This document shows, one piece after another, positions 9,752 through 29,829 of a DNA stretch of 42,218 bases (position 1 is its first letter; the number at the start of each line of letters is the position of its first letter). The translations under genes were made by a program, and so were the position numbers. The DNA lies in assembly GCA_947166155.1 (NCBI GenBank), contig CAMVDC010000006.1:1-42218 (forward strand). Reading direction: 5' to 3'. The notes beneath the pieces are model-generated. The model was not told the DNA's origin. It was given only the letters and a program-made list of their open reading frames with translations, and did not search any database. Source of the stretch: an uncultured Prevotellaceae bacterium (GTDB taxonomy: Bacteria > Bacteroidota > Bacteroidia > Bacteroidales > Bacteroidaceae).

Positions 9752-12226
9752 ATGAAACTTGCAAGTAAAATATTTACACTTACGCTGGCCATGGCGATGG
9801 CTGGCTCTGCCTGTGCACAGAAGTGGTATAAGGTTAATGTGCATGAATCCAACTATGGTTTCGAGTGGAGTTTCCCTTACGAAACCGAACATTTCTCTCA
9901 TTTTGATTTTTCTGCCGACGGCAATGAGCTTCGCGCCCACCGCATAGACGAGGTTGAGGGCGTGGTGAATTATGTGCCGTTTATGACTGACAATGTCGAC
10001 AGCGTGGTCTTTGCCGACGAATTGGCAGAAGAACTTCAGACCCACAACAAATATCAGGTCTACTCGATGAACATCACCACAGATGGCTCTGTCGGTGTTT
10101 TGTCGAAGGATGAATATGTGAATTGCTACATTTCCCTCGATGGTCGCGACGGCTACAACATGTATTCTGGCACGGGTCGCATCCGTGGACGTGGCAATTC
10201 CACTTGGAAGTGGTATGACAAGAAGCCTTATCGCATCAAGCTCGACACAAAGCATAAGATGTTGGGACTTGATTCAAACAAGGATTGGGTGCTTCTGGCC
10301 AACTTCCGCGATGTTACCGACCTTATGAACACCTTCATGTTCGAGGTAGCTCGCTGGATGGGCATGCCTTACTGCAACCACACCCGCTACGTGGAGCTTT
10401 TCCTCGATGGCGAGTACCGCGGCCTCTATCAACTCACCGAGCAGGTGGAGCAAGGCAACAGCCGTGTGGCTGTGGCCGACAACGGAGGTATTCTCCTAGG
10501 TATGGACGTCGACGATGGTCCCGAGCTCTGTCCCGATGCAACCGACAACTTCTGGTCGAAGGTCTACAGCATGCCGATGGTGGTGAAGTATCCCAAGGAT
10601 GTAGATGCCCAGACCAAGGACTCAATCCGGGGCCTCCTTGCCGAACTTGAAAATGTAATAAAGTCGGCCGACTATGACGCCCTCGACTCAATCATGGACA
10701 TGCGCTCGTTTATGACCATGGCCATGCTTCAGGAATACAGCTACAACGTAGAGCTGGCAGCTCCGCGCAGTATCTTTATGTATAAGGATGTCAATGGCAA
10801 GTGGGCCATGGGTCCATTCTGGGACTGGGATGCCGGTTTCGACTTCGACTGGAGCGACATGTATACAGGTCACGTCTTCTTCAACAACTATCGCAACCTG
10901 CTACTCGGTACCGACCCCGCCAACCGCATCGGCGCTCGCGGCGGAGTGCCACGCTACTTCACCGACATGTTCAAGTCCGACCGCTACACACGTGAATACA
11001 AAGCCTTGTGGAACTCGGTGAAAGACTCAATCTTCACCCGCAACTGGGCCGAGATGGAACGCTATATCAGCGAACTCAACAAAGGCGCCTATGCACGCGA
11101 CCTTCAGCGCTGGCCGCTCACCTACACAACCGGCGGAGGCTGGTGGGGCGGACAGACAGTGTCGTATGTCATAGCCGACGAGATAGAGAAAATGCGTAAG
11201 TGGCTTGTCGGCCGCACAGCATATCTCGACAACATAATCAATGCATACCCCGTTGGCGGCAACGAAGGTGATGACCAGGAACCCGAATACGGAGTACTCA
11301 ACACCTACACCAACGGTACCAACATCGACATCTACGTCAAGATGAAAAAAGCCGCTGGATATACACAAAGCGACCAAATCGAAATCGACCCCTCAATGCT
11401 TGCCCAGGCACTCGGGCTCAGCGAGTCGGAAATCAATAGCGCCACCGTCAGCCTCACCTCGCTCAACAGCAACGGAAGCGTAGGCCGCAACACCGGTGAA
11501 GGCACATGGGGAGCATGGTTCAACGACAATGGCGATGTAGTCAGCTGGAACAGCGAATCACACGTATATATCAACCCGAGCAACACCGCCACCAGCGATG
11601 TCTACTCGTGGTCATACGGCTGCCATCCAAACATCTGCTCTTCAGGCGACCAACACATAGTCAAGATGCGCTACAGCGTGACCCGCAGCCGTCAGACACT
11701 TTATGTTTACGTCACCGTCCACTTCGGCATCGACGTCTTGCCCACCGGAACCTACGACAACATCAACGTCGACCCCTCCCTCTTCTCATGGCGCAACATG
11801 CAGAGCGTGGGAGAAGAAACCATAACTCGCAGCTACGACCTCGCCACCGTCGCCGCCTATGCCAAGCAGCCTATTTCAATCAATTTAGATGGCATTACAG
11901 CACAATTTCCCGACGGGGCAACCATCAACGACCTTACATACATGGTATGCAAAGACGTCAAGACCGGCGAACTCATCTCGCGCTCCACGGCATATAATAA
12001 CGAAACCTCGTCCAACGGTTTCTACATGCTCTTCGACGGCACCGCAGCTGCATGGGGCAGCAGCGACTGTAAAGTGGGCTACAACCCATCGAGCAGCACC
12101 ATCGACTTCGCCTACACCGCCGACACCTCGCGCCCACAAAATGGCACGACCTGCAATGCATCGGTGTTTCTTGTGTACGAAAACAAATACTATTATCGCT
12201 TGCGAATGAACATAACTTTAGTCTGA
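9752..12226 (+). CDS. CotH kinase-family surface protein with signal peptide and C-terminal DUF4859-like region
   Basis: 824 aa; N-terminal signal MKLASKIFTLTLAMAMAGSACAQ; CotH hallmark GRIRGRGNSTWKWYDKKPYRIKLD and IFMYKDVNGKWAMGPFWDWDAGFD; C-terminal WGAWFNDNGDVVSW...YVYVTVHFG. Confidence 0.85.
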   Translation: MKLASKIFTLTLAMAMAGSACAQKWYKVNVHESNYGFEWSFPYETEHFSHFDFSADGNELRAHRIDEVEGVVNYVPFMTDNVDSVVFADELAEELQTHNKYQVYSMNITTDGSVGVLSKDEYVNCYISLDGRDGYNMYSGTGRIRGRGNSTWKWYDKKPYRIKLDTKHKMLGLDSNKDWVLLANFRDVTDLMNTFMFEVARWMGMPYCNHTRYVELFLDGEYRGLYQLTEQVEQGNSRVAVADNGGILLGMDVDDGPELCPDATDNFWSKVYSMPMVVKYPKDVDAQTKDSIRGLLAELENVIKSADYDALDSIMDMRSFMTMAMLQEYSYNVELAAPRSIFMYKDVNGKWAMGPFWDWDAGFDFDWSDMYTGHVFFNNYRNLLLGTDPANRIGARGGVPRYFTDMFKSDRYTREYKALWNSVKDSIFTRNWAEMERYISELNKGAYARDLQRWPLTYTTGGGWWGGQTVSYVIADEIEKMRKWLVGRTAYLDNIINAYPVGGNEGDDQEPEYGVLNTYTNGTNIDIYVKMKKAAGYTQSDQIEIDPSMLAQALGLSESEINSATVSLTSLNSNGSVGRNTGEGTWGAWFNDNGDVVSWNSESHVYINPSNTATSDVYSWSYGCHPNICSSGDQHIVKMRYSVTRSRQTLYVYVTVHFGIDVLPTGTYDNINVDPSLFSWRNMQSVGEETITRSYDLATVAAYAKQPISINLDGITAQFPDGATINDLTYMVCKDVKTGELISRSTAYNNETSSNGFYMLFDGTAAAWGSSDCKVGYNPSSSTIDFAYTADTSRPQNGTTCNASVFLVYENKYYYRLRMNITLV

Positions 12227-12268
12227 GTGTAATTAACAAATAAATAACCAATCAAACCTCGAAACCAT

Positions 12269-12331
12269 ATGGACAAAAAGACAACATCGAAAAAAGACCT
12301 CTACTTCAGCCGCGGTCCCACACCAAACTGA
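12269..12331 (+). CDS. Candidate 20-aa micro-ORF (MDKKTTSKKDLYFSRGPTPN) between cotH and FAS1 genes
   Basis: ATG at 12269 after an A/T-rich leader, TGA at 12329-12331; same frame stays open for 28 more codons to TAA at 12416-12418. Confidence 0.35.
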   Translation: MDKKTTSKKDLYFSRGPTPN

Positions 12332-12433
12332 GGTGGGCAAAGCCGCAAACCAACCGGCAACACCCACGGCCGTAAGGCCACCCAAACAACGAAACAAATC
12401 AATAATCAAATTAATTAATAATCTTAAAATTTT

Positions 12434-15253
12434 ATGTTGTTTAACTTTCAGAGTAACAAATTACACAAACATCTTCTGGTAGGAGGTGCTTTGTGTGCTG
12501 CAGCTCTTGGATTCAACGGTTGTACCGACACTTATGACCTGGATGACAAACAGCCAACCGGCTTGAACACCATCTACGGTTATATGAACGACCAAGGCAA
12601 CTACAAGAACTTCTTGCAGCTCATTGACGACCTGGGCGAGAAAGAAACACTTTCGAAAACAGGTTCCAAAACCCTGTTCATTGCTGATGATAATGCATTC
12701 AATGCATTCTATCACAACAATAAATGGGGCGTGACAAGTTATGATCAACTGACCCTGGCACAGAAGAAAATCATTCTGCGCTCGGCCATGATCGACAACC
12801 CTTACCCAATCAGTATGCTTTCGAGCGTGCAGGGACCTATCGAAGGCGAGTGTATGCGTCGTACCGCTTCATTGCAAGTCTACGACTCAGTACTCGTGTT
12901 GCGTACCGACGACCCACAGCTGCCTAAAACCAGCTACTGGACCAACCTGGCACAAACACACGACACAATCGTGCTCTTCAAGGACGGATCAGGTGCATCG
13001 CCAATGATTCACTTCCTGCCACGATTCCTCGAGCAAAACATGATTACAGGTGAAGACGTAGACCGCCTCTACAACCTGCCTGTCGGAACCCATGTCTCTG
13101 ACGATGCATTCGTCAACGACTGTAAGGTCATTGAAGCAAACATCTTCTGTAAGAACGGATTCTTACATAAAGTAGATAAGGTGATGCTTCCACTCGACAA
13201 CATGGCAGAGGTGATTCGCACAAAACCACAACTCAGTCAGTACAGCGAACTGATCGAGCGATTCTGCGGACCAATCTACAGCTACGACCTCACCGAGCGC
13301 TACAACCAAATCTACGGCACACAAATCGACTCTGTATACCAGAAGTCATACTTCGCCGATCGTGGTAGCGCAAGTACAGGAACTACCAACACACAGCGCA
13401 CCGAGGACAAAGACCACAACCCTGTGACCGACATCATCAAGTACGACCCGGGATGGAACCGCTATCAGCCAGGTACAATCCTCGACCAGAACCGCGACGA
13501 GGTGATGGAAGACATGGGATGTATGATCGTACCAACCAACGAAGCACTCCAGGAATGGTGGGACAAAGGCGGCGGAAAGCCACTGAAGGACAACTTCGGT
13601 TCATGGGATAAGGTGCCAAACAAAGTGGTGCGCGAGCTCATCAACAACAATATGCTCAAGTCATTCGTGGCATCAGTACCATCAAAGTTCCACTCTGTGC
13701 TCAACGATGCAGCCATGGAGATGGGCATCAAGACCGAAAACCTCGACAGCGTGTTCCTTGCTTGCAACGGTGCAGTATACCAGACCAACAAGGTGTTCAC
13801 ACCTACAAGCTACTCTTCAGTGCTCTTCCCGGCAGTAGTGACCGAAGCCATGAGTATCATCTACAACGCCATCCAGGTGCTCCAGTTCGATGCATACCTC
13901 AACTCAATGGTGTCAAGATATAGCTTCTTCATCCCGCTCAACGACGGTATGCTCACATACGTCGACCCAGTGACACTCGGACAGAGCGAGACCAACATCT
14001 GGAAGTTCTACTTCGACCCCGATGGACGTTCACTCCAAGCTCGTGTCAAGGCCGTTGTTTACCATGCCGAACTGCAGGAAGACGGCACATGGCTTAAGGG
14101 CGACTCACTCCGTACCGTCACCGGTGGTGGAACAGTAGGTAGCGCCGGAAGCTCAGACCCAGTCTACAACCGCTTGCAGGAAATCCTCGACAACATCATC
14201 GTAATCGGTGACCTCGAGGAAGGCAAATACTACTATCGCACCAAGGGACTCAACTTCATCAAGGTCGGCGGACAAATCAATGTTCCAGGCTCAATGACAG
14301 CAGCCGGTGGATGGCAACTCGAAAACGGCGAACCACTCGTAGTTTCACAGGTTTATCCTATGGAAAATGGTACGTCATACGTTTGCGAAACACCACTCTA
14401 CTCAACAGTCAAGGCAACCAGCGACGTGCTGGCAAGCAACGAAAACTTCAGCGAGTTCTTTGCAATGCTGACAGAATGTGGAGCATTGTCAACCAGCCCA
14501 CGCGCAGCACTCAACTGGTCTTCAGTATCACGCAATGGTAACTTGATTTACAGCCCGGCCAACACAAGCGAGAGTGTGGGATACCTGCTCAACACATATC
14601 ACTACACCATCTACGCTCCTACAAACGAAGCTATGGCCGATGCATACAGCAAGGGTCTCCCGACACTCGAAATGCTCGATGAAGCACGCGAGATTGACGA
14701 CGACGACTCAACAGTCATCGTAGTAGCACCAGGCGATACTATCAAGTACGCAGAAATCAACGACTCAGCAGCACATCTGCAGAAGGTGATGCTCGACTTC
14801 GTAAAGTATCACATCCAAGATAACTCAATCTACATTGACAAGGGCTTTGAAAGCGGAAACTACGAGTCAGGAAAAATCAATCCTTCAACCGGACGTTCCT
14901 TCAAACTTGCTGTCAATGTTGATAATGCTGGAACCACAATGACCGTAAAGGGCATCTGCTCACCAGCCCAGGAAATCAACAAGTCTGTGATGTACAACAA
15001 GATGGCACGTGAGTTCTGGCTCAACAACACCAATGTCAACAATGCCACACTCATCAACACCTCATCAGGCGTTGTGGTACATGCAATCGACAAGCCACTC
15101 CTTTATAAGTATTATGCAGATAGAGACCTGGCTTTGCCTGAAAACAACCAGTTCATATACTCACCAAACGAAGTTTACACCGAGGAAGAGGAATATGAAA
15201 TAAGAAAGCGTGCAGAAATCTATAAGCTCAATAAGCGTATAAATAAGAAATAG
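12434..15253 (+). CDS. Large FAS1 (fasciclin) domain lipoprotein
   Basis: 939 aa; lipobox-like LCAAALGFNGC; FAS1 signatures KTLFIADDNAFNAFY and YTIYAPTNEAMADAY. Confidence 0.82.
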   Translation: MLFNFQSNKLHKHLLVGGALCAAALGFNGCTDTYDLDDKQPTGLNTIYGYMNDQGNYKNFLQLIDDLGEKETLSKTGSKTLFIADDNAFNAFYHNNKWGVTSYDQLTLAQKKIILRSAMIDNPYPISMLSSVQGPIEGECMRRTASLQVYDSVLVLRTDDPQLPKTSYWTNLAQTHDTIVLFKDGSGASPMIHFLPRFLEQNMITGEDVDRLYNLPVGTHVSDDAFVNDCKVIEANIFCKNGFLHKVDKVMLPLDNMAEVIRTKPQLSQYSELIERFCGPIYSYDLTERYNQIYGTQIDSVYQKSYFADRGSASTGTTNTQRTEDKDHNPVTDIIKYDPGWNRYQPGTILDQNRDEVMEDMGCMIVPTNEALQEWWDKGGGKPLKDNFGSWDKVPNKVVRELINNNMLKSFVASVPSKFHSVLNDAAMEMGIKTENLDSVFLACNGAVYQTNKVFTPTSYSSVLFPAVVTEAMSIIYNAIQVLQFDAYLNSMVSRYSFFIPLNDGMLTYVDPVTLGQSETNIWKFYFDPDGRSLQARVKAVVYHAELQEDGTWLKGDSLRTVTGGGTVGSAGSSDPVYNRLQEILDNIIVIGDLEEGKYYYRTKGLNFIKVGGQINVPGSMTAAGGWQLENGEPLVVSQVYPMENGTSYVCETPLYSTVKATSDVLASNENFSEFFAMLTECGALSTSPRAALNWSSVSRNGNLIYSPANTSESVGYLLNTYHYTIYAPTNEAMADAYSKGLPTLEMLDEAREIDDDDSTVIVVAPGDTIKYAEINDSAAHLQKVMLDFVKYHIQDNSIYIDKGFESGNYESGKINPSTGRSFKLAVNVDNAGTTMTVKGICSPAQEINKSVMYNKMAREFWLNNTNVNNATLINTSSGVVVHAIDKPLLYKYYADRDLALPENNQFIYSPNEVYTEEEEYEIRKRAEIYKLNKRINKK

Positions 15254-15254
15254 T

Positions 15255-18200
15255 ATGAAAAGAATAATATCAATGTTAATGCTATTAGCTTGCTTCTGTA
15301 CACTGGCACAGGCGCAGGTGAAGGCAGGCGATATAATCTCAGGTACCGTTTCCGATGACATCGAACCTCTGATGATGGTGAATGTGGTCGAAATCGACGC
15401 CAACAACCGTATTGTCGCCCACGGAGTTACTGATATCAATGGTAACTTCTCATTCAAATGTGTAAACCCGAGGGACCACATTCAGGTTTCATACATTGGA
15501 TACAAGACACAAAACCTACCTATTAATAAAAAGGTGTTCAAGATAATCATGCAGAGCGACACCCAAATCGAGACGGTGACCATCACCGCTACCCAAATGA
15601 CAGACGGTACAGGACTCTCAATCCCTATCACCGAAATCTCGACAGCTCAGCAGACTATCAGCATGACCGAGTTTGAAGGACTTGCAATGACATCAGTCGA
15701 TGAAGCACTGCAGGGACGTATCTCAGGTCTTGACATCGTGATGAACTCTGGTAACCTCGGTGCTGGTACTACAATGCGTCTGCGTGGTGTAAGTACAATC
15801 ACTGGTAACGCCGAGCCACTGATCGTCGTAAACGGTAATATCTGGTCGGAAAACCTCGACGGAAGCTTCGACTACAACAACGCAACCGAGGAACGATTTG
15901 CAGAACTGCTGCAGGTTAACCCTGAAGATATCGAGAGCATCACAGTGCTCAAGGACGCTGCCGCAACAGCTATTTGGGGTTCACACGGTGCAAACGGTGT
16001 AATCGAAATCAAGACTAAACGTGGACAACGTGGTAAGACACGCGTAAGCTATTCATACCGCTTCTCAGGCACATGGCAGCCCGACGGAATGAAGATACTC
16101 AACGGTGACGACTACACCATGTTCCTCAAGGAGTCATACTTCAACCCGACACTCAACAGTACAATCGCCGACAACACATCGTCGAGCTACATACCCGAAA
16201 TCAACTACGACCCCAACTACTCACAGTATCACATGTTCAACAACAACACTGACTGGGAAGACGTAGTTAAGCAGTTCGGTCAAAACCACCAGCACTATGT
16301 ATCACTCTCCGGTGGTGGTGAAAGAGCACGATTCCGTGTATCAGGCGGATACGACTATCAAATCGGTACCGTAATCAAGCAGAGACTCAACCGTTACACC
16401 ACACGTGTTGCACTCGACTACAACATCTCGAACCGCATCACTGTATCGACCAACTTCTCACTCTCCTACACTCACAACAAACACACATTCGGAGGTGACC
16501 CACTCGGTATAGCATACAAAAAGATGCCAAACGTTGCAATCTACGAAGAAGATGCAAATGAAATACCATCCGACAACTTCTACATCATGCAGAAGGAGTT
16601 CACATCTTCACAGCTCAACGACCAACTCGGTGTAGCCAACCCTGTGGCAAACGCACACCTCGGTAAGAGTATAGACAACAACCTCTCGCTCTCGCCTGAG
16701 TTCATCATGAAATACGACATCCTCGGTACTCGTGGCGACCAGCATCGACTCACATACCAGGGACAAGTTTCATTCAGTGTCAACAGTTCAGACTCTAAGA
16801 CATTCGCTCCATCAGTGCTCCAGACCGACGGTTGGACAGGAAGCAATGCCAACGTTGCCAACTCTTCTCAAAACAAGAGCCACAACTTCACCACACGTCA
16901 CAGCCTCACCTTCGCTCCACACTTCAACAACGAAGACCACAGCTTGCAATTCATGGTACGTGCTGAGTATGGTGCAGGAAACTCTTCTTCACAAGGCATC
17001 GGACGCCGCTGGCTCCCAACAAGTGACATCACATCGGCCCTGGCCGGAGGTGTTATCTCAAACTTCAGCTCAGGCGTAGGACGCTCAAAGAATGAGAACT
17101 TCGCAACTCAGATGCACTACGCATTCCGCGGAATGTATATCTTCGACTTCACAGCACGTTTCGATAAGTCAAACGGACACCCGAAAGAGTGGGGTAAGTA
17201 CTTCGGTATTTCAGGACGTTGGAACATCACCGGCGAGAAATTCATGGAAAAACTCAAGTGGATCAATATGCTTTCTATGAGCCTCGGTTGGGGACGTTCA
17301 GGACGTACAGCAAGTAATGCAACAAACATGTACAGTACATATAGCTCAAGCGGCTCGTACATGGGAGTTCAGGCTGTTGCTCCACAACAAATCCGACTCT
17401 CTGTCATCCGTCCTGCAAACCAGGATACATGGGACTTCGGTTCTAACTTCGCATTCCTCAACAACCGACTGAGCGGTGATATCCACCTCTATACCAACAA
17501 GTCGGAGCAGATGATGGCCTACCCAATCCCAACATCTTCTGGTTTCAAAACCATTCCTTCAAAGATTTACGGTTTGGTTCGTAATAACGGATGGGAATTC
17601 AATATCAGCGCCAACGACGTCTTCCGTCGCGGTAAGTTCTCTATGACATTCAATATGGCATTCTCGAACAACCGTAACCAAATCCTCGAAATGGACGACA
17701 TGATTCTGGAAAGTTACAACGATGAGTTCAACAAGTCGAACGGACAATACCTCTCTCGTGTACAGCTCCACAACCCAGTCGGCTCAATCTACGGATTCCG
17801 CTATAAGGGCGTATATGCTTACAGCGAATACAGCGAGGTAGAAGTTCCTGGCGTGAGCGGCCCCGATGCACCTGTGGCACGCAATGCAAAAGGCGAAGTC
17901 ATCCTTAACGAAAACGGACGTACCAAGCCAATGATGTTCGACTTCGAAGGTCAAAACTATGAGTTCAAGGGCGGTGATGCCAAGTACGAAGATATCAACC
18001 ACGATGGTAACATCAACGAGCTCGATATCGTTTACCTCGGCTCATCACTTCCAAAACTCACCGGTGGTTTCGGATTCCGTATCCGCTACGATAAATTCAA
18101 TGTTAACTTCCAGTTCAACTACCGTGTTGGACAGAAGGTGCTCAACACCGCACGTATGAATGGTGAAAGCATGTACGACAACAACAACCAATTGAGAGCC

Positions 18201-18516
18201 GTGAACTGGCGCTGGCACAACGAAGGTGATATCGCACCTATTCCACGTGCACTCCACAACTACGGTTACAACTGGCTCGGTTCTGACCGCTTCATGGAGG
18301 AAGCCACAGTTCTCTTACAACTTTGACTCACGTCGTCTCACACAGTTCGGTATCAAGTCGATCAACACAAGCTTCAACTTGAACAACCCGTTCGTACTCA
18401 CCAAGTACTCAGGTGCCGACCCAGAACACCCACAGGGTGGTTATGGTCCTGCAACCGACGGTGGACGTACACCTCGTTCAAAGTCTTTCACTCTTAGCTT
18501 AAATATTGGATTCTAA
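15255..18516 (+). pseudogene. SusC/RagA-type TonB-dependent outer membrane protein with frame break near 18306-18320
   Basis: ORF 15255-18326 carries the carboxypeptidase-regulatory-like and plug domains (MRLRGVSTITGNAEPLIVVNG, VLKDAAATAIWGSHGANGVIEIKTKRG) and ends ...DRFMEEATVLLQL*; the typical C-terminus FSYNFDSRRLTQFGIKSINTSFNLNNPFVLTKYSGADPE...FTLSLNIGF continues in the +1 frame to 18516. Confidence 0.82.
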
Positions 18517-18528
18517 AACTCATTAACG

Positions 18529-20376
18529 ATGAAAATACATAATATAATAAGGACAATAGGCGTAGCATTGTTTGCAGGTACGACATTCGTATCGTGCGAT
18601 GTTGAGTTGCTACCTCTTAACACCGTTATCCTTGAGAACTATTGGACCAATAAGGATGACGTGCAAAGTGTTGTCACATCCTGTTATGCCGGTCTGTGTT
18701 CATCAGACGTTATCACACGAATGGTTATCTGGGGCGAAGTCCGTTCAGATAACTGTGAGCCTGGACAGCAGATAGCAAATGCAGGAAATGACCTGAAATA
18801 CCTTCTCAGCGGAAACATCCTTGAAACCAACAGCTACTGCGAATGGTCTTCATTCTACAATGTAATCAACCGATGCAACACCGTCGAGATGTATGCACCT
18901 ATAGTGCAGGAACGCGACCCTAACTTCACCGAGTCAGACCTCCGTCAGACCATGGCCGAGATTAAGGCAATTCGTGCCCTGTGCTACTTCTATCTTATTC
19001 GTACATTCGGCGACGTACCATTCACATTCACTCCGTCAATCGACGATGGACAGGAATTTGTTATACCTGCAACCAAGCAGGAACTCATTCTTGACACACT
19101 GATTATGGACGTTGAGTCGTATATGATGTACGCACCGAAACGCTATGTAGTCGACAACGAGACTTCAGGAAAGATTAGCCGCAATGGTGTATATGCACTT
19201 CTGGCCGACCTCTATCTCTGGAGAGCATCCAATGCTAAGGTTGACCCGGCAAAGCGTAACGAGGACTACCTCAAGTGTATCGAATACTGCGACAAGGTGA
19301 TTGCAGCCAAGATCGACGAATACAAGGAAGACCGCTATGGCAACCTCAAGCGTCAGATTAGTCGCGACATATATGGCGAAAACGGATATCCTCTGATTGA
19401 AGAGTGGTCTGAAGCAGACCAGAACTCTGGTACAGGTGTCAATGCCAAAGCTTACGCATTGATTTTCGGTACTGGTCACTCATTCGAGAGCCTCTTTGAA
19501 CTTTCGTTCTCTTCAAACTCTGCATCAGGCGGTACTACCAACTCGACCCTGTCGACTCTGTATGGAAGCAACAGCAGTGCTGAAAACGGAGCACAGTTGG
19601 CTGCTACCGAAGCTTTGATGTCAAGCAAACCTAACAACCAATATCAGTACGACAACAGCCTTCTGTTCACTTCTTACGACTTCCGTAGCCAGGAGAACTT
19701 CCAGTGGCACGAAACCAACGTGTTCAACATCCGTAAGTATGTGACCGACCAGGCTCGAGTTGTCTGTGGTTCTCCTCAGCAATGGGCCGTACAACAGCCA
19801 AGCTACCGTACAGAAAACTATGCCAACTGGATCATCTATCGTCTCACCGACATCATGTTGCTGAAAGCTGAGGCCGAAGTTCAGGTGGCAGACTATATTG
19901 ATAACTATGTTCCCGACACATCAAGTGTCAAGACTCGTGTTGAGCAAGTATATGGCAATGTATACACTACATCAAAGGAATACTACGACGATGCGTTCAA
20001 CATTGTTGATGCCATCTACAAGCGCTCTGCACCAAATGCTCCTGCACAATACAAGCCAGTGCGTAACAGCGTGACCAACAAGCGCGACTTTGACAACCTT
20101 GTGGAAGCTGAGCGTCGCCGCGAACTTATGTTCGAAGGCAAGCGTTATTACGACCTCCTGCGTAAGGCTCGTCGTGACGGATCTACTACCAATGTTGTAG
20201 GTCAGCTCAGTAGCAAGTATCAGAGCAACTCTTCGGCTATGCGAATCAAGATGACTATGCTTGAGTTCCTCTACATGCCATATGCAAAGGAAGAGCTGAG
20301 ACGTAACAAACTGCTGAAGCAGAACCCAGCATTTGATAAGGAAAAGAAGAATAACAGAACTGGATTTAGCGACTAA
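18529..20376 (+). CDS. SusD/RagB-family nutrient-binding outer membrane lipoprotein
   Basis: Lipoprotein signal ...TTFVSCDVELLPLN; EIKAIRALCYFYLIRTFGDVPF; C-terminal EAERRRELMFEGKRYYDLLR. Confidence 0.93.
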   Translation: MKIHNIIRTIGVALFAGTTFVSCDVELLPLNTVILENYWTNKDDVQSVVTSCYAGLCSSDVITRMVIWGEVRSDNCEPGQQIANAGNDLKYLLSGNILETNSYCEWSSFYNVINRCNTVEMYAPIVQERDPNFTESDLRQTMAEIKAIRALCYFYLIRTFGDVPFTFTPSIDDGQEFVIPATKQELILDTLIMDVESYMMYAPKRYVVDNETSGKISRNGVYALLADLYLWRASNAKVDPAKRNEDYLKCIEYCDKVIAAKIDEYKEDRYGNLKRQISRDIYGENGYPLIEEWSEADQNSGTGVNAKAYALIFGTGHSFESLFELSFSSNSASGGTTNSTLSTLYGSNSSAENGAQLAATEALMSSKPNNQYQYDNSLLFTSYDFRSQENFQWHETNVFNIRKYVTDQARVVCGSPQQWAVQQPSYRTENYANWIIYRLTDIMLLKAEAEVQVADYIDNYVPDTSSVKTRVEQVYGNVYTTSKEYYDDAFNIVDAIYKRSAPNAPAQYKPVRNSVTNKRDFDNLVEAERRRELMFEGKRYYDLLRKARRDGSTTNVVGQLSSKYQSNSSAMRIKMTMLEFLYMPYAKEELRRNKLLKQNPAFDKEKKNNRTGFSD

Positions 20377-20384
20377 TTAGAACT

Positions 20385-22460
20385 ATGAATATCAATAAAA
20401 TTAAATATCTTTTTGCGGTAGTGACCGTGGCTTTGGCTGCGTTCAGTGTTGGATGCTCCGACGACCCTGGAGTGGAAAACTACTACACTGCCAAAGGTGA
20501 TATGGCAAGCACATATCTCACCAACCGATCTGAGACATTCAGTGAGTTCATAGAGATTATCAACAGGTCGAACATGGTTCGCTTCGACCTGCTCGGAACA
20601 TATGGCTCCTACACTGTCTTTGCTCCAACCAATGAGGCTGTCGACAAGTATCTTGCTGGTCGTGGTTTCTCGTCGATTGATGAACTGACAACCGAAGATT
20701 GTGATACCATTGCAGCTACTCACATCATCGAACAGTCGTTCTTCACCACCGACTTCTCGAATGCCACGCTGCCTGCGCAGAACATGCTCGACCGTTACCT
20801 CACCATCACATGCGATTCCGACTCAGTGTCGGTACCGGATGCTATCAACATCGTTTACTACATCAACAGTAGTGCACGTCTTATAAATTACGACGACTCT
20901 GTTGAAAACGGTGTGGTACACACAGTCGACCGAATCATCGATGCCACCACCGAGATGCTTCCCGACCTTATGATGAAGGACACTACAATAAGTCTCTTCT
21001 ACGAAGCCCTGAAGCTGACCCACATGGACGACTCGATGCGTTACTACATGTATGAGGACTATCATTGCTCGCCCGACTCGTTTGAGGAAGGACACTGCTA
21101 TTCTACAGCAGTAGAGTATGATAACGTGTTCTACATGGAACATCGGTACTATGGCTTTACAGGCTTTGTCGAGCAAGACAAGGTGTATGCAGAACATGGA
21201 ATCAACAATATTGAGGACCTGAAAGCATATGCCAAGGAGGTTTACGACGAGATGTATCCCGAATGTGCCGATATCGACGACCCCACCGACCGTCGCAACT
21301 CTCTCAACCGATTCGTATCTTACCACTTCCTCGACCGTCGTGCCCACTACGACGACCTTACAGTTAAGACAGCAGGATTGAACTGCTTCGACCGTCGTCA
21401 CTGGGATGTAGCCGACTGGTATGAGACTATGGCTCCTTACTCGCTGATGAAGATATCCTATCCGTCGGGCAACCAGGCAGGTCGCTATGTGAACCGCCGC
21501 GGTGTCCAGAACCGTAAGGATACAAGGGGCGTGTTTGTCCCAGGTGCTAAGATTTTGACTCCATCCGATGCCGGCAGAAGTCAGGAAGCCGTGAATGGTG
21601 TATATCACTACATCACCGACATCATTACCTACGGACGCGAGACACAGGAAGTAGTACTCAACGAGCGTATGCGTATGGATGCCTCGACCCTCTCGCCCGA
21701 CTTCATGACCAGTGGCGCACGTGGCCACATGGTAGGACAGTTCGGTGTGGGTGGTATTGGTGGAAGTCCTCAGTACCCATATCAATATGGTCAGCAGTCA
21801 AACAGTACAGACCCGAAGAAGAATGTGAATACTTGTCTTGGCTTCAAGGCAGGCTCAGCTCGCAACTTCATTTATTCAGACGTGACTACTCACCTCCATG
21901 TACGTCCCCGCTACCTCAACTTCTGGTCTTATGAGGGCGACGAAGTTACCATCTGTGGTATGTATGACATTCAGTTCAAGTTGCCGCCAGTGCCGGAAGG
22001 CGACTACGAGTTCCGCATCGCTACCTGTATCGACTTCTCGAACCGTGGTATCGTTCAGGTTTATCTCGACGGCGAACCTTGTGGCATTCCACTTGACATG
22101 CGTATCTCAGGTACTCACCCAAGCGTAGGCTTCCGTGCAGACTCAGAGTTCTCGAGTGGCACCGACCAGGAAGGCATAGCCGCCTACGACAAGGCCATGC
22201 ACAACCGTGGCTGGATGAAGGGTCCATCTTCATATGGCAACATTGCAGCCGATGGTACAGGTCAGCCCGACTGGTTCCGTGGACACGTAAACACCCTGCG
22301 TCGTATATTTGCGACCTTCCACTCCGACGGCCGCCGCGACCACTGGGTACGTGTACAGCAGAAGTTGGAATCGACTAATGGTACATTTGCATTCGACTAT
22401 ATCGAGCTTTGTCCAAGGAGTGTTTACAACAATGAGCTTTATCCAGAAGACAAGTTATAA
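20385..22460 (+). CDS. FAS1 (fasciclin) domain lipoprotein
   Basis: Lipobox AAFSVGC; GTYGSYTVFAPTNEAVDKYLAGRGFSSIDELTTEDCDTIAATHII. Confidence 0.87.
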   Translation: MNINKIKYLFAVVTVALAAFSVGCSDDPGVENYYTAKGDMASTYLTNRSETFSEFIEIINRSNMVRFDLLGTYGSYTVFAPTNEAVDKYLAGRGFSSIDELTTEDCDTIAATHIIEQSFFTTDFSNATLPAQNMLDRYLTITCDSDSVSVPDAINIVYYINSSARLINYDDSVENGVVHTVDRIIDATTEMLPDLMMKDTTISLFYEALKLTHMDDSMRYYMYEDYHCSPDSFEEGHCYSTAVEYDNVFYMEHRYYGFTGFVEQDKVYAEHGINNIEDLKAYAKEVYDEMYPECADIDDPTDRRNSLNRFVSYHFLDRRAHYDDLTVKTAGLNCFDRRHWDVADWYETMAPYSLMKISYPSGNQAGRYVNRRGVQNRKDTRGVFVPGAKILTPSDAGRSQEAVNGVYHYITDIITYGRETQEVVLNERMRMDASTLSPDFMTSGARGHMVGQFGVGGIGGSPQYPYQYGQQSNSTDPKKNVNTCLGFKAGSARNFIYSDVTTHLHVRPRYLNFWSYEGDEVTICGMYDIQFKLPPVPEGDYEFRIATCIDFSNRGIVQVYLDGEPCGIPLDMRISGTHPSVGFRADSEFSSGTDQEGIAAYDKAMHNRGWMKGPSSYGNIAADGTGQPDWFRGHVNTLRRIFATFHSDGRRDHWVRVQQKLESTNGTFAFDYIELCPRSVYNNELYPEDKL

Positions 22461-22484
22461 TTCTTAATAAACAACAATATTCGT

Positions 22485-24254
22485 ATGAATAAGAATATAT
22501 ATAAAACAATCCGCATGGGAGCAGTAGCAGTGGCAAGTTTACTTGCCTGCTACTCCTGCTCGGATACATGGGACGACCACTATAATGCAGGAACCGATGC
22601 TTTGGTGGTTGATGCAACCATTTATCAGCAATTGCAAGCAGAGAAAGCCAAAGTGAGTGACTTCCTTGAAATAATAGATGCCACTGGATACAAGGCTCTT
22701 CTCGACGAAACTCAGATAGTGACGGTGTTTGCACCTGTCAATGGGTCTTTCAATAAAGACAGCCTTATGGCCGAAATCAATAACGGACATAAGGAATTGG
22801 TGATAACCCGTTTCGTGAAGAATCACATCGCACGTTACAACTATTCAGGCAATTCAGAAGTTCAGGATGTGGAACTTCTCAACAAGAAGTTTACAACCCT
22901 GTCAGACGGCTTTGTTTCTGAAGACTCTATTTCTTCAACTGAAACAATTTGTAACAACGGTGTGCTTCACATCATGTCTTCAATGCTTCCGTTCCATACC
23001 AACATCTACGAGTTGCTTGAGACGGAGACTGGTACTGACTCGATCTATACCATACTTAATAACTACGACGAAGACTCACTCGATGTCAACCGTAGTATTT
23101 ACCGTGGTGTAGACTCCGACGGTAACCGTATATATGTTGACTCTGTGATTATCCACACCAACGACCTCATGTCGCGCTTGGTAGGATATGTTCATCGTGA
23201 GGACTCTAACTACACATTCATTGCTCCTACCAACGAGGCTTTCATAGAACGACTGAATGAAGCTCGCAATTACTTTGTGTACAACTTGCATGAGGATAAT
23301 CGCGACTCGCTGCAGAACTTCTATAGCAATTACTTCACAATCAAGCCGCTCATCTTCAACAACAACGTGAATTTGCATCAGGACGACTCGCTTGTAACCA
23401 CAACCTACTCAAAGGGCGATCCTAAGTACAATGTGTTCTACAAGCCATTCGAGCGTGGAGGTATCCTTGCTCCTGGCACTTACACCGAGAAAGTTGATTG
23501 CAGCAACGGAGTTGTTTACCTTACCGATACTTATCCTTCAAGCATCTACGATTCATTCTTCCGCGAGATTGACGTAGAGTGTGAGAACACAGGAAGTGTC
23601 AACCGTGATGAGGACGACAAGGGTAATGCTCTTTTCACACGTCAGTGCAACTACTCGTATGTCACTATTAACGACGATCAGGTATCTCACCGTGCTTACC
23701 TCGATGTACGTCCATCCAACACCTCGGCACAGCCTTACATCGCATACAACATCCCTAACACATTGGCAGGTGAGTATGACATGTATCTTGTGACTGTTCC
23801 ATTGTCGATGGGTGTGAATATTATACCCGAGGATTCACTCAAGCCTTACCAGTTCCGTGTCAACATGTTCTACCGTACCAACCGTCCGAATGATGTGACA
23901 TCCAACTGGCCGACCAACCGTAGCGAGACTCTGAAGAATCCTAAGGGCGGCTCAAACTTTGTGAGTGATCCAACCAAGGTTGATACCATCTATCTTGGTA
24001 CGACTAAGTTCACCGAGTGCTATTATCACTCAGCATGGGCTGGCGTTATGATTCAGATTCAGTCTTACATTTCGTCTGCTCAGACCAAGAATTACTCACG
24101 TCGTATGCTTCTCGACCGCATCATACTCATGCCTGCAGGTCAGTCTCTGACTGCACTGAGAGGTAAGGAAGCACGTGAAGCTGAACTGGCCGAAGAAGAA
24201 TCTGGCGAGGTTGACGTGACCATTCCTGAGACAGAAGAGCCAACAGACGAATAA
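22485..24254 (+). CDS. FAS1 (fasciclin) domain lipoprotein, two FAS1-like modules
   Basis: Lipobox LLACYSC; IVTVFAPVNGSFNKDSLM and YTFIAPTNEAFIERLNEA. Confidence 0.83.
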   Translation: MNKNIYKTIRMGAVAVASLLACYSCSDTWDDHYNAGTDALVVDATIYQQLQAEKAKVSDFLEIIDATGYKALLDETQIVTVFAPVNGSFNKDSLMAEINNGHKELVITRFVKNHIARYNYSGNSEVQDVELLNKKFTTLSDGFVSEDSISSTETICNNGVLHIMSSMLPFHTNIYELLETETGTDSIYTILNNYDEDSLDVNRSIYRGVDSDGNRIYVDSVIIHTNDLMSRLVGYVHREDSNYTFIAPTNEAFIERLNEARNYFVYNLHEDNRDSLQNFYSNYFTIKPLIFNNNVNLHQDDSLVTTTYSKGDPKYNVFYKPFERGGILAPGTYTEKVDCSNGVVYLTDTYPSSIYDSFFREIDVECENTGSVNRDEDDKGNALFTRQCNYSYVTINDDQVSHRAYLDVRPSNTSAQPYIAYNIPNTLAGEYDMYLVTVPLSMGVNIIPEDSLKPYQFRVNMFYRTNRPNDVTSNWPTNRSETLKNPKGGSNFVSDPTKVDTIYLGTTKFTECYYHSAWAGVMIQIQSYISSAQTKNYSRRMLLDRIILMPAGQSLTALRGKEAREAELAEEESGEVDVTIPETEEPTDE

Positions 24255-24264
24255 CTCCTAAAAT

Positions 24265-27200
24265 ATGAAATGTATGAAAAGATATATTAATGACAATATT
24301 CTGCATTTCTGCAAGGCAGGAATCGCAGCGATGATATTCTGTATAGGAGTACTTCCAGTGTCGGCTCAAGACGACGATGCCGATGTCGCAGAAGAGGCTC
24401 CTGCTGAAAAGAAGGCCAAGAAGCCCATTAAGCAATATCCGATGGTAGAGGTGTCGGGTAAGGTAGTGGATGCTGCAACTGGAGAGGGACTTCCCGGTGT
24501 CAGAATCCGTTCCTACAACAACAATTTCTATGCTGCCATGACCGACTCTGCCGGTAACTACAGCATCAGTGTTCCGACATTTGTTACATCGCTTTCGGCC
24601 AATATCGATGACTACAACCTCAGTCAGGTTGCCATCAATGGCCGTACGTCAGGTGTCGATTTCCACCTCTATTCAGCTAAGTACAATGCCGACTACGAAG
24701 CAAAGACTTCTGGCTCACGCGCTGTAAGCACTCAAGGATTTGAGTACACCACATCGCTCACAGCCGATCAGGAGATTCAGAATCGTTTCGGAAGTGACGT
24801 TCGTGCCATCTCACGCTCTGGTATCCCAGGCCAAGGTGTCAGCATGTTTATTGAAGGTTTCCACTCAATCAACGCTACATCACAGCCTCTCATCGTGATT
24901 GATGGTGTGGTGCACGACCAGATGTATTCTTCTACGATGCTTCACAACGGATATTACAATGACCTGCTCACAACGCTCAACATGGACGATGTGTTGGAAA
25001 TCAAGGTTCTCAAGAATGGTACTGCCCTCTATGGTGCAGCAGCTGCAAATGGTGTAATTCTCATTTCAACCAAGCGCAACACCAGCATGGCTACTCGCAT
25101 TGATGTGAACATCAGTGGTGGAGTTGAAATCCGTCCGAAGTCAATCGATGTGATGGATGCCAATGAATATCGCTCCTACGCATCAGGTCTGTTGAAGACT
25201 GCCGGTAGTAAGCTCGACGACTTCAAGTTCTTGAAGACCGACCCCAACTACTATTATTATAATATGTATCACAACAACACCGACTGGAAGAAGATTGCAT
25301 ATCGTGAGGCTCTCACTCAGAACTATGGCATCCACATCCAGGGTGGTGACGATGTTGCCAACTACAACCTCTCTGTTGCATACATGAGGGCAGAGTCGAC
25401 TCTGAAGAAGAACGACATGAGCCGCTTCAACATCCGCTTCAACTCCGACATCGTGCTGACGGAGAAGCTCTCTACTCGTTTCGACGTTTCTTATGTCAAC
25501 ATCACTCGTGACCTTCGCGATGATGGTTTGTCAAAGTCTGTTCAGCCCAACTCTATCTCGTCACCCAATGTGCTGACACTCGTCAAGTCACCGTTTGTGG
25601 CTCCTTACGACTTCTCGACCGCTGGTGTGATGTCTAACTTCGTATCCGATGCCGACGATTACCTCTACGAGGCTTTGGGTGCAACAGCATCAGTAGCCAA
25701 CCCGCTCGGTATCCTGCAGTATGGTGAGGCACTCAACAAGAACCGTGTCGACAATACATCGGTTGATATAGCCATCACTCCGGTATGGCACATCTCACGC
25801 GATATGTCGATTCAGGAGCAGTTTGGTTACTCTTCTTACAGCTTTGACGAGAACTACTACACTCCACTTGTAGGTATGCCAAATCACTACATCCAGGACA
25901 TTGGCGTTGTGACCAACACCGTGGGTTCAAACTTCTCTAAGCACAATGCTGTACAGAGCGACACTCGTTTCAACTGGAACATTCCTATGGGTGCACATCG
26001 TCTCGACTTCTTTGGTGGCGTACGCTACATGAACAACAACTACAAGGCATCCGAGCTCTATTCGTTCAGCACTGGTAACGATAAGACTCCATCGCTCAGC
26101 AGTTCTACTGGTAAGCGTCGTGCCGATGGTATCGACGACACTTGGAAGTCAATCACATGGTATGGCGACTTCGACTACAACTACCGTGAGAAGTATTATC
26201 TGCATGGTATCTTGGCTCTCCAGTCATCATCTCGTTTCGGTAAGGATGCAAAGGCTGGTATCGGTATGTTTGGCGTACGTTGGGGATTCTTCCCATCAAT
26301 CCAGGGTGCTTGGGTTCTCAGCAATGAAAAGTGGTTCCGTCCTAACAACGGTATCAACATGTTGAAGCTCAACGCTGGTTTCGAGTCTGTAGGTAACGAC
26401 TCTTACGACAACAATGCCGCATTCACCTACATGTCGAGCCGTCCGTTCCTCCAGGAGAAAGCTGTGGGTATCGGCCTCACCAACATTGGTAACACCAAGT
26501 TGCGTTGGGAAACTACCGACCGCTTCAATGCAGGACTTGAAGGTAACTTCTTCAACAACCGACTCAATGTCAAGTTCAACTACTTCTACTCAAAGACCAG
26601 CAACCTCGTAACTCTCGGAACCATTGCATACGTAACGGGTCTGAAAGACTACTGGACCAACGACGGTGCTTTGAAGAACCAGGGCTTCGACGTGTCGGCC
26701 GATGCCAAGATTGTCAACACCAAGCCATTCAAGTTCTCTTTGGGTGCAAGTGTAGGTCATTACAAGAACAAGATTACTCAGCTTCCAGAAAATGCAGAGT
26801 CGATAGAGCATACACTCTATGAAGGCACCGTCCTCACCAAGGTGGGTAGTCCTCTGGGTATGTTCTACGGCTTCAAGACCAACGGTGTTTATGCAACCTC
26901 TGCCGATGCAGCTCGCGAAGACCTCGGTATCACCAACGAGGCTGGCAACAAGGTTAACTTCGGTGCTGGTGATGTTCGCTTCGTCGATACTTATGCTGAT
27001 GGAATCATCTCCGATGGTACTGACGGCAACAAGGACGACCGTGTCATCATTGGCGACCCCAACCCCGACATCTATGGTAATATCCGTGCCAATTTCTTCT
27101 TTGGCAAGAACCTGAGCGTAGGCTTCAACTTCAACTACAGCCTGGGCAACGACATCTACAACTATCAGCGTGCACTGCTCGAAGGTGGCAAGGCATTCCT

Positions 27201-27555
27201 CAACCAGACCACAGCGCTCAACCGCCGTTGGATTGCTGAGGGCCAGAACACCGATATCCCACAGGCCGTCTATGGCGACCCAATGGGCAACAGCCGTTTC
27301 TCTGACCGCTGGATTGAAGATGGTTCATACCTCCGTCTGAAGAATGTTACAGTAAGCTATCAACTTCCTATCTCTGACGAATACTTCCGTGGCCTCACCA
27401 TCTGGGCTGCTGCCAACAACCTCTTCACCCTTACCAAGTATCTGGGTAGCGATCCTGAGGTTTCATGTGGCAATGGTTCCCTCCTCCAGGGCATCGATGC
27501 AGGTTTCACTCCTGCCGGACGTAGTTTCACACTCGGAGTTAAGATTAACTTGTAA
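24265..27555 (+). CDS. SusC/RagA-type TonB-dependent outer membrane protein (intact)
   Basis: VSGKVVDAATGEGLPGVRIRSYN...; plug VLKNGTALYGAAAANGVILISTKRN; C-terminal DGSYLRLKNVTVSYQLP...RSFTLGVKINL. Confidence 0.93.
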   Translation: MKCMKRYINDNILHFCKAGIAAMIFCIGVLPVSAQDDDADVAEEAPAEKKAKKPIKQYPMVEVSGKVVDAATGEGLPGVRIRSYNNNFYAAMTDSAGNYSISVPTFVTSLSANIDDYNLSQVAINGRTSGVDFHLYSAKYNADYEAKTSGSRAVSTQGFEYTTSLTADQEIQNRFGSDVRAISRSGIPGQGVSMFIEGFHSINATSQPLIVIDGVVHDQMYSSTMLHNGYYNDLLTTLNMDDVLEIKVLKNGTALYGAAAANGVILISTKRNTSMATRIDVNISGGVEIRPKSIDVMDANEYRSYASGLLKTAGSKLDDFKFLKTDPNYYYYNMYHNNTDWKKIAYREALTQNYGIHIQGGDDVANYNLSVAYMRAESTLKKNDMSRFNIRFNSDIVLTEKLSTRFDVSYVNITRDLRDDGLSKSVQPNSISSPNVLTLVKSPFVAPYDFSTAGVMSNFVSDADDYLYEALGATASVANPLGILQYGEALNKNRVDNTSVDIAITPVWHISRDMSIQEQFGYSSYSFDENYYTPLVGMPNHYIQDIGVVTNTVGSNFSKHNAVQSDTRFNWNIPMGAHRLDFFGGVRYMNNNYKASELYSFSTGNDKTPSLSSSTGKRRADGIDDTWKSITWYGDFDYNYREKYYLHGILALQSSSRFGKDAKAGIGMFGVRWGFFPSIQGAWVLSNEKWFRPNNGINMLKLNAGFESVGNDSYDNNAAFTYMSSRPFLQEKAVGIGLTNIGNTKLRWETTDRFNAGLEGNFFNNRLNVKFNYFYSKTSNLVTLGTIAYVTGLKDYWTNDGALKNQGFDVSADAKIVNTKPFKFSLGASVGHYKNKITQLPENAESIEHTLYEGTVLTKVGSPLGMFYGFKTNGVYATSADAAREDLGITNEAGNKVNFGAGDVRFVDTYADGIISDGTDGNKDDRVIIGDPNPDIYGNIRANFFFGKNLSVGFNFNYSLGNDIYNYQRALLEGGKAFLNQTTALNRRWIAEGQNTDIPQAVYGDPMGNSRFSDRWIEDGSYLRLKNVTVSYQLPISDEYFRGLTIWAAANNLFTLTKYLGSDPEVSCGNGSLLQGIDAGFTPAGRSFTLGVKINL

Positions 27556-27583
27556 TAACACCTCACCTCATCTCTCTTACCTC

Positions 27584-27614
27584 GCGGCCTTCCGACCTAT
27601 GTGTCGATGGCCGC
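27584..27614 (+). other. Stem-loop between susC and susD of the second pair
   Basis: GCGGCC (27584-27589) / GGCCGC (27609-27614) with inner CGAC (27593-27596) / GTCG (27603-27606). Confidence 0.6.
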
Positions 27615-27648
27615 AGGGGGAGGGCGAGGAAACAAAACGAAATTCTAT

Positions 27649-29829
27649 ATGAAAACAAAATCAATCATATTTTCAGGTTTGCTCCTTGCGCTTCTTGGAG
27701 CAACAACCACTTCGTGCGAGGATATGCTGAACGTGGAAGATGAGTTGCATACACAGAATCTTGCTCCTCAGGACACCGTCTATCAGATGTTTGGCATCAT
27801 CAATCGTATCCAGAGCCTTGCCGACCGCATTGTGGTGCTTGGCGAGTTGCGTGCTGACCTCATCGAGGTTGACCCCGACGTGGCCAAGACCTCACTGCAG
27901 GAAGTGATGAACAACAACATCACAACCGACAACGAGTACAACCAGATTGCCGACTACTATGCAGTTATCAATGCCTGCAACACTTATCTCGCTTATGTCG
28001 ACTCTACGTTTGTGTCGCACAACAAGCTACACTATGAACGCGAGATTCAGGCCGTGAAGACATTCCGTGCATGGACCTACCTCGAGTTGGCCAAGGTCTA
28101 TGGCACTGTGCCATTCGTAATCGAGCCGGTACTCTCATCGGCTAAGGCCGACGACATCGTGGCTTCAACCACCAACCGTGTCAACATGGGTCAGATATGC
28201 GACTACTTCATCGAGGACCTTCTCCCTTATGCATCGAAGTATGTCGAGACTCCTAACTTCGGAACAGTGAACTCGTTCAACAGCACACTGTTCTTCATAC
28301 CTACCCGCCTCATGCTCGCTGAGCTCTATTTGTGGCGTGGTGCGTTCAACCAGAGTCAGGATGACTATGTTCAGGCTTGTCGCTACTATCACGACTACTT
28401 CACCTATCCAAACCACACGATTACCACCGGTACTGCCAGCACCAAGTGGGGTAATGCCATGTTCACTGGAAACCCCAACGACTCTTATTCAGGATCGTTC
28501 AACGGCGATGCAGTCACTATCATCCCTCTCGATACCTGTGCTTACGACGGTACATGGAGCCAACTCTATGCAATCTTCAACTCACAGTTTGAGAACAACT
28601 ACTTCGTGCCTGTATATCCATCCGAGCGCGTTCGCGAGATTTCACGCGATCAGGTTTACTGCTACTACTCGTATGTCAACCTTCGCCGCGATACCATCTA
28701 CAGCACTCAGAAGCAGGAATGGGAAGACTCGCTGCTCAAGGGTGACCTCCGTCTCGGAGCTGTTTACGACCGCTCTTACGTGAGCAACATGTATACCGAT
28801 ATTTACAGCTACCAGCGTCAGCACATCATGAAGTTTGCCACATCGTCAAGCAATAATGGACCTGACCAGAAGCTGCGCCGCCTCAACCTCTTCCGCAAGA
28901 ACATCATCTGGCTCCACTTTGCTGAAGCCCTCAACCGTGCCGGATTCCCACAGACAGCATTCGTCATCCTCAAGTATGGTCTCGACCGCTATTCTATCCA
29001 GAATTATGTTGATTATAATGAAAGCATGCGCCTGAGGGAAGTTCCAACCTTCTTCAACGGAAACCTTGGTTCATGGAGCGAACTTGACTTTGTGACCGAG
29101 ATATCGCCACGTGCTACCGACGGTACCACCAGTCGTGTCAACCAGCAGGGTATTCACTCGCGTGGATGTGGCGACAGCCGTTACAACGACTTCTACGATC
29201 TGCCTCGCGACAGTGCGCTGTGGGCTGTTTCCGATTCACTCTATGACTTGTACACTCAGATTTCAACAACGAGGCTTCTATTCCAAAGTGACTATGCCGT
29301 ACCTGAAACAATACATGTTGACACCATATACGACGTTTTATATGATCAATATACTGATGAAAATGGAAATGAAGTCATCGACACTTTGTACAATTATCAT
29401 CAAGTCTATGATTATGTGAGATATACATATTCTGACACTACATTCATTCCAGTATCCGATGCAATCGCCGATTCTCTGATATTGACATTCTTTGATGCTG
29501 ATACCATGTCATTGGCAGAAATAAACGATATATTATCCTCAAATTCTTCGCGCGTTTATAATGAATATAGAGACGCCCACGACGTGGCTTACGAGCACGA
29601 CTTCCCATTATGGCAAGAAGCACTCCATCAGATGATTCTCGACGAGCAAGCCCTCGAAGGAATGTTTGAAGGATATCGCTTCTACGACCTCATGCGCTAT
29701 GCCATGTATACCGGCGACAAAGACTATATCGCCCGCGAGGTGGCCAAGCGTAAGGGCCTCAACGAGCACGACAGCCGTGCCGATGCCCTGCTCGGAGGCA
29801 ACTGGTATCTGCCACTGCCAAAGCGATAG
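27649..29829 (+). CDS. SusD/RagB-family outer membrane lipoprotein
   Basis: ATG at 27649 gives MKTKSIIFSGLLLALLGATTTSCEDMLN (the track's 27601 start is a GTG ahead of the signal peptide); EIQAVKTFRAWTYLELAKVYGTVPFV; LEGMFEGYRFYDLMRYA. Confidence 0.9.
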   Translation: MKTKSIIFSGLLLALLGATTTSCEDMLNVEDELHTQNLAPQDTVYQMFGIINRIQSLADRIVVLGELRADLIEVDPDVAKTSLQEVMNNNITTDNEYNQIADYYAVINACNTYLAYVDSTFVSHNKLHYEREIQAVKTFRAWTYLELAKVYGTVPFVIEPVLSSAKADDIVASTTNRVNMGQICDYFIEDLLPYASKYVETPNFGTVNSFNSTLFFIPTRLMLAELYLWRGAFNQSQDDYVQACRYYHDYFTYPNHTITTGTASTKWGNAMFTGNPNDSYSGSFNGDAVTIIPLDTCAYDGTWSQLYAIFNSQFENNYFVPVYPSERVREISRDQVYCYYSYVNLRRDTIYSTQKQEWEDSLLKGDLRLGAVYDRSYVSNMYTDIYSYQRQHIMKFATSSSNNGPDQKLRRLNLFRKNIIWLHFAEALNRAGFPQTAFVILKYGLDRYSIQNYVDYNESMRLREVPTFFNGNLGSWSELDFVTEISPRATDGTTSRVNQQGIHSRGCGDSRYNDFYDLPRDSALWAVSDSLYDLYTQISTTRLLFQSDYAVPETIHVDTIYDVLYDQYTDENGNEVIDTLYNYHQVYDYVRYTYSDTTFIPVSDAIADSLILTFFDADTMSLAEINDILSSNSSRVYNEYRDAHDVAYEHDFPLWQEALHQMILDEQALEGMFEGYRFYDLMRYAMYTGDKDYIAREVAKRKGLNEHDSRADALLGGNWYLPLPKR

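Follow-up and report, generated by a model that had tools for sequence, protein, structure and literature searches.

A conserved FAS1-SusCD gene cassette in an uncultured Prevotellaceae bacterium, a probable import core for hemicellulose utilisation

The window analysed here is a stretch of 42,218 nt from an uncultured Prevotellaceae bacterium (GCA_947166155.1, contig CAMVDC010000006.1, positions 1-42,218, forward strand). Positions 9752-29829 of this window hold eight genes, all on the plus strand, in the order CotH, FAS1-1, SusC1, SusD1, FAS1-2, FAS1-3, SusC2, and SusD2. The seven genes from FAS1-1 to SusD2 form a conserved cassette, which probably serves for binding and import at the outer membrane, as the core of a system for hemicellulose utilisation, the substrate most likely being (glucurono)arabinoxylan. 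The three FAS1 proteins would be lipoproteins exposed on the cell surface, with carbohydrate-binding module (CBM)-like parts of FAS1-2 and FAS1-3 capturing hemicellulose chains. Enzymes from unlinked loci would trim the glycan fragments in trans, and the SusD1 and SusD2 lids would hand the oligosaccharides to the SusC1 and SusC2 transporters, with which they presumably form complexes. The gene order, strand, and family assignments of the initial annotation were borne out by searches against Pfam and NCBIfam, as follows.

9752..12226 (+): secreted protein with CotH (Pfam, residues 144-492, E=8.6e-38) and DUF4859 (E=1.2e-13) domains
12434..15253 (+): FAS1-1, cassette gene 1, large lipoprotein with FAS1 stretches (Pfam Fasciclin, E=1.3e-14)
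15255..18326 (+): SusC1, cassette gene 2, SusC/RagA TonB-dependent transporter, truncated (TIGR04056, 539 bits, profile 3-914 of 981)
18253..18513 (+): C-terminal remnant of SusC1, out of frame (TIGR04056 904-981; tblastn)
18529..20376 (+): SusD1, cassette gene 3, lipoprotein (Pfam SusD_RagB, E=7.4e-18; SusD-like_3, E=1.9e-8)
20385..22460 (+): FAS1-2, cassette gene 4, lipoprotein with a FAS1 region (Pfam, E=3.5e-16) and a putative C-terminal CBM-like jelly roll
22485..24254 (+): FAS1-3, cassette gene 5, lipoprotein with a FAS1 region (Pfam, E=3.6e-13) and a putative C-terminal CBM35-like jelly roll
24265..27555 (+): SusC2, cassette gene 6, SusC/RagA TonB-dependent transporter (TIGR04056, 534 bits)
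27601..29829 (+): SusD2, cassette gene 7, divergent SusD-like lipoprotein (Pfam SusD-like_3, E=3.3e-6; SusD_RagB, E=1e-5)

A profile of FAS1-2 retrieved more than 580 related stretches from species-representative genomes, and the best 80 were fetched and compared. All 80 loci belong to Bacteroidales, mostly to metagenome-assembled genomes of Prevotella/Prevotellaceae and Bacteroidaceae, many of them ruminant-derived. Cassette genes were present in 62 of these loci, while an orphan FAS1-2 gene was found in the other 18. The uninterrupted array FAS1-1, SusC1, SusD1, FAS1-2, FAS1-3, SusC2, SusD2 was identified in 53 of the 80, with median gaps of 3-31 bp; conservation of the order of these seven genes is well above chance. 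Several cassettes occur in Hallella seregens ATCC 51272. At E<=1e-40, the same profile matched only three of 396 genomes sampled across the phylum, the window's own included; accordingly, the FAS1-2 family is concentrated in parts of the Bacteroidales. None of the remaining sampled genomes from the family to which the window belongs carried it. The literature searched on FAS1 or fasciclin proteins in connection with SusCD, polysaccharide utilisation loci (PULs), Prevotella, or xylan yielded passing mentions only, and a description of the cassette was not found; a FAS1 gene is mentioned in the figure legend of a Gramella PUL (PMC4891872).

The surroundings of the cassette in related genomes point to hemicellulose, chiefly xylan. 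At least one gene for a glycoside hydrolase (GH) of families GH30, GH43, GH51, GH67, GH98, or GH8 or for an esterase was detected in the fetched flanks of each of the 16 Prevotella-type genomes (38 genes, 7.8 per 100 kb). Control stretches taken from these genomes gave such genes in one of 12 genomes, at 1.3 per 100 kb. Families confirmed by Pfam or NCBIfam in the flanks include GH43 with the xylosidase C-terminal domain, GH98, GH8, GH51, GH67, and GH10, as well as a GH30 related to glucuronoarabinoxylanase XynC, a feruloyl-esterase-like gene, and a GPH pentoside symporter. In Hallella seregens, GH43 precedes the cassette, which is followed by GH30, an esterase, a GPH symporter, GH43, a hybrid two-component system (HTCS) regulator, and GH67. 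HTCS-like genes, called by motif and similarity rather than by Pfam, are often located next to the cassette, as in L078, L086, L095, L105, L121, L125, and L160. In a set of 295 genomes from the order, FAS1-2 and GH67 also coincide more often than expected (16 of 31 versus 22 of 264; Fisher p=2e-8), the figures for full-length matches being 10 of 13 (p=9e-8). In two genomes (G291 and G111) a single contig carries both, at a distance of 13-19 kb. A secreted family of about 1100 amino acids lacking a Pfam match is often encoded beside Prevotella cassettes (L072:18515-21877, L160:11955-15245). It may represent a new family of glycan-binding or catalytic proteins.

The window genome comprises 2.79 Mb in 235 contigs and is 85% complete. 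SusC1 and SusC2 are its only SusC genes above the cut-off, and SusD_RagB matched only SusD1 and SusD2; above the same cut-off, the related genome G295 has about four SusC genes and G296 has three, while other relatives have many. The same genome has 26 matches to GH43 (some are pieces of one gene, leaving more than 15 GH43), three GH10, and one GH67. Contig C13 carries the cluster GH98-GH115-GH95-GH43/CBM6-GH10/esterase, and contig C31 the cluster GPH-GH10-GH43-GH67; no SusCD genes were present beside either cluster in the stretches read. The GH98, GH115, GH10, GH43, and GH67 proteins of these clusters are 50-67% identical to proteins that flank the cassette in other genomes. A similar set, GH30, GH43, GH98, GH31, GH95, and GH115, is described for the use of glucuronoarabinoxylan by Bacteroides (PMC8002723). 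Enzyme clusters unlinked to the SusCD loci have already been described for xylan utilisation in Segatella copri (PMC11784079) and for Prevotella bryantii (PMC8002723). A split layout is the best reading of these data: in Prevotella, the cassette is accompanied by its enzymes and regulator, whereas the enzymes of the window lineage are on other contigs. The statement in the initial annotation that the locus has no degradative enzyme is correct for the locus itself, but an enzyme-free nature of the system is not supported, since enzymes flank homologous cassettes and are encoded on other contigs of the window genome. Two adjacent SusC/SusD pairs, one with a frame-broken SusC1, are present, as expected for a PUL; linked enzymes and a linked regulator are absent. 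Because no carbohydrate-active enzymes are linked within 9752-29829, the locus is the transport core of a PUL and not a complete PUL. Tandem SusCD pairs and xylan-degrading enzymes in the genome, as in a Xus-type xylan import system, were both found.

Proteins with FAS1 domains are commonly interpreted as adhesins. The fasciclin domain (PF02469) scored 50-60 bits in all three locus proteins, against a curated cut-off of 22. Their initial identification as FAS1 proteins therefore stands, but FAS1-2 and FAS1-3 are more than simple FAS1 proteins, as an extra beta-sandwich module appears to follow at the C terminus. FAS1-1 has an invariant Cys30 and, in a profile search, matched FAS1 structures of periostin and TGFBIp. 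FAS1-2 and FAS1-3 possess lipoprotein-type N termini with an invariant cysteine. Their AlphaFold (AF2) models, built from 41 and 36 homologues, reached a mean predicted local distance difference test score (pLDDT) of 86 and 87, respectively. Using Foldseek, both models were matched to FAS1 domains of periostin/TGFBIp and, separately, to carbohydrate-binding jelly rolls: the xanthan-binding MiXBM (7ehg) and Clostridium thermocellum CBM35 (2w47) in both cases, and 2w1w for FAS1-3 only. The CBM35-like match is one of fold similarity only, with template modelling (TM) scores by target of 0.52-0.67, and it probably corresponds to the C-terminal part of each protein, judging from the all-beta secondary structure there. 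Foldseek matches to xanthan lyase, beta-glucuronidase, and Cry toxin had low TM scores and are consistent with beta-sandwich domains. None of the eight locus proteins had a hydrolase or peptidase domain at E<=1e-3 in Pfam or NCBIfam. A hydrolase hidden in the FAS1 proteins, named beforehand as a finding that would refute the initial interpretation, was not found by Pfam, NCBIfam, a PDB profile search, or the fold search; only FAS1 and carbohydrate-binding folds were credible in the models. The suggestion that FAS1 proteins replace surface glycan-binding proteins (SGBPs) is very probably right, given that these lipoproteins are encoded between the SusCD pairs and have a CBM35-like module that seems to be C-terminal.

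As in the window, the cassette directly follows the ribosomal operon in eight related genomes (G295, G296, G299, G300, G301, G302, G303, and G304). The slot between rplQ and FAS1-1 is occupied by CotH in the window, G295, G296, and G299, by an AbnB-like GH43 with GH43_C and LamG domains in G300, G301, G303, and G304, and by a different GH43 in G302 (by locus, CotH in L140, L142, and L144, GH43 in L130, L134, and L136). Since CotH and GH43 alternate at this position, CotH occupies the slot of an enzyme. Adjacency of CotH to FAS1-1 is restricted to the window and five relatives (L042, L043, L050, L062, and L076). Thus, of the co-occurrence of FAS1, SusCD, and CotH that was to be checked, the association of FAS1 with SusCD is strongly conserved, but CotH is a clade-specific neighbour outside the conserved cassette. 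This bears on the main role proposed initially, adhesion or surface-protein phosphorylation, in which the FAS1 proteins would attach to host matrix and be phosphorylated by CotH. The FAS1 domains do resemble periostin/TGFBIp, and the CotH fold and motif are kept: the CotH profile reaches the spore kinase CotH (5jd9, E=0.0096), with the WD(W/Y)D motif aligned and reading WDWD in the window protein. However, only six of 63 cassette loci contain CotH, with GH43 in the same slot elsewhere; cassettes sit in hemicellulose loci, with further enzymes on other contigs of the window genome; the FAS1 proteins bear CBM-like modules; and of the six places in this genome that encode CotH domains five are outside the locus, one beside a GH43 gene. 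We therefore regard this explanation as very improbable. Kinase activity of CotH on FAS1 or Sus proteins is possible. Matches of CotH to haemoglobin lie near the N terminus and look like chance. The protein beside a GH43 gene at L228 (G000:C120) is another CotH-domain protein of 976 amino acids, encoded directly next to that gene.

The same kind of importer might serve pectic arabinan or another arabinose-rich glycan instead of xylan. The slot GH43 in G300, G301, G303, and G304 is closest to the arabinan endo-arabinosidase AbnB, and GH51 genes adjoin some cassettes and orphans. Nevertheless, we consider this unlikely, as the flanks hold the xylan-type families GH30 (XynC-like), GH67, GH98, GH8, and GH10 together with the feruloyl-esterase-like gene, and the clusters of the window genome hold GH98, GH115, GH67, and GH10. 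Several points weigh against an importer of (glucurono)arabinoxylan. The locus itself contains neither an enzyme nor a regulator. Its substrate is read from neighbouring genes, and arabinan or a different hemicellulose is also conceivable, the GH43 of the sister lineage being AbnB-like and both GH51 and GH43 acting also on arabinan. As the assembly is 85% complete and split into 235 contigs, it may lack further SusCD genes or hide a linkage to enzymes. The control stretches were picked by contig number and are non-random, and the Fisher test for FAS1-2 and GH67 ignores phylogeny. By sequence profile, the FAS1 proteins have no Pfam match to a CBM, CBM35 included, and the Foldseek output carries no query ranges, so that the C-terminal placing of the CBM match rests on secondary structure. 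Finally, SusC1 is frame-broken.

The break in SusC1 is near 18.3 kb. In tblastn comparisons, SusC1 proteins of relatives, which are intact and about 1100 amino acids long, align in one frame to about 18.31 kb and then in another to 18513. The SusC1 open reading frame (ORF) thus lacks the last 70-80 residues or so, and the missing part is encoded at 18253-18513 in another frame. This accounts for the gap of 202 bp between SusC1 and SusD1, which contradicts the initial estimate of gaps of about 1-25 bp from FAS1-1 through SusC2; the gaps from CotH to FAS1-1 and from SusC2 to SusD2 are 207 bp and 45 bp, respectively. Either a true mutation or a fault in the assembly could explain the break. Together with the lack of enzymes at the locus and the presence of only two SusC genes in the genome, it would fit a decaying relic that has lost its linked enzymes, with SusC1 a pseudogene and the locus partly or wholly non-functional. 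We judge this quite unlikely: seven other long ORFs are intact, SusC1 is intact at the same chromosomal place in G295 and G296, the break itself may be an assembly error, and two FAS1-2 paralogues are retained that are syntenic in relatives.

These two paralogues are 64-70% identical and occupy unlinked sites of the window genome (L007:10070-12121 and L008:11487-13547), one between alaS and glf (C32) and the other between mdh and a DPP3-like peptidase gene (C8), the neighbours being named from sequence. Both sites recur in relatives (L041, L047). Orphan FAS1-2 genes arose repeatedly, because a maximum-likelihood tree of 46 rows requires at least six changes between cassette and orphan on well-supported branches. 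Such repeated duplication to unlinked sites was seen for FAS1-2 alone and was unexpected. In other genomes, orphans are located beside GH8, GH51, or GH43 genes; those in L051, L052, L053, and L056 are near contig ends. It is possible, if somewhat doubtful, that lipoproteins of the FAS1-2 type act as interchangeable ligand-binding subunits for a dual-SusCD importer that they share, three copies feeding the only SusCD of the genome and serving scattered enzymes.

With its two SusCD pairs and its association with GH10, GH43, GH67, GH30, GH98, and GH115, the cassette resembles the tandem-SusCD xylan PULs of P. bryantii (xusABCD), Bacteroides ovatus, and S. copri. It differs from them in the three FAS1 lipoproteins interleaved with the SusCD pairs and, in the window copy, in having no enzyme or regulator and in its placement after the ribosomal operon. 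Like SGBP-B/C of PULs, the FAS1 lipoproteins are encoded next to SusD and have a beta-sandwich module resembling glycan-binding ones, but they are built on FAS1 domains and their glycan binding is predicted. They share the FAS1 fold (Pfam, Foldseek) with periostin, TGFBIp, and bacterial FAS1 proteins; in contrast to these proteins, they combine it with a CBM35-like jelly roll, and their genes belong to a SusCD operon. Similarly, the window CotH has the CotH domain (PF08757) and the metal-binding-like motif of 5jd9, but it is very distant from this spore-coat protein, is fused to DUF4859, occurs in a Gram-negative bacterium, and is a putative kinase. The general mode of action is known; what is notable is the constant linkage of FAS1 and SusCD in one cassette and a SusCD locus that is apparently the only one in its genome. 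FAS1 is a fixed part of a probable glycan-import cassette that is widespread among Prevotella and Bacteroidaceae genomes from rumen and gut. If our interpretation is true, many Bacteroidales proteins now annotated as 'fasciclin domain' would have to be predicted as hemicellulose-binding, and importers of the window type would escape PUL predictors that rely on enzymes. A fibre degrader with many GH43 and apparently one SusCD locus would offer a simple natural case for studying how one importer serves unlinked enzymes.

Upstream of the locus, the window contains a ribosomal-protein operon, the last gene of which is rplQ (8129-8641, named from sequence). Downstream are an engB-like GTPase gene, rho, and a HAD gene, beyond which a GH31 gene is located on the minus strand (35751-38192), 5.9 kb from the locus. 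It resembles models of alpha-glucosidase MalA and alpha-xylosidase alike and stays under both cut-offs. No HTCS or extracytoplasmic function (ECF) sigma regulator was found among the window ORFs scanned, and Rfam and tRNA scans gave no matches. The sequence TAAGTTTG at 9691..9698 (+), 53 bp before CotH, is weakly similar to the Bacteroidales -7 promoter element; matches to this motif in the window show no excess over chance. On both sides of the locus, at 9293-9490 and 29903-30078, the intergenic DNA holds tandem arrays that have a period of exactly 22 nt and the palindromic core GAGTGCGCACTC. The 20-mer GCGAGTGCGCACTCTCGGGC has 255 copies in the genome (up to 2 mismatches) versus 0 for a reversed control. 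A second type of array, with a spacing of 22-23 nt and a different, T-rich unit, directly follows rplQ at 8714-8837.

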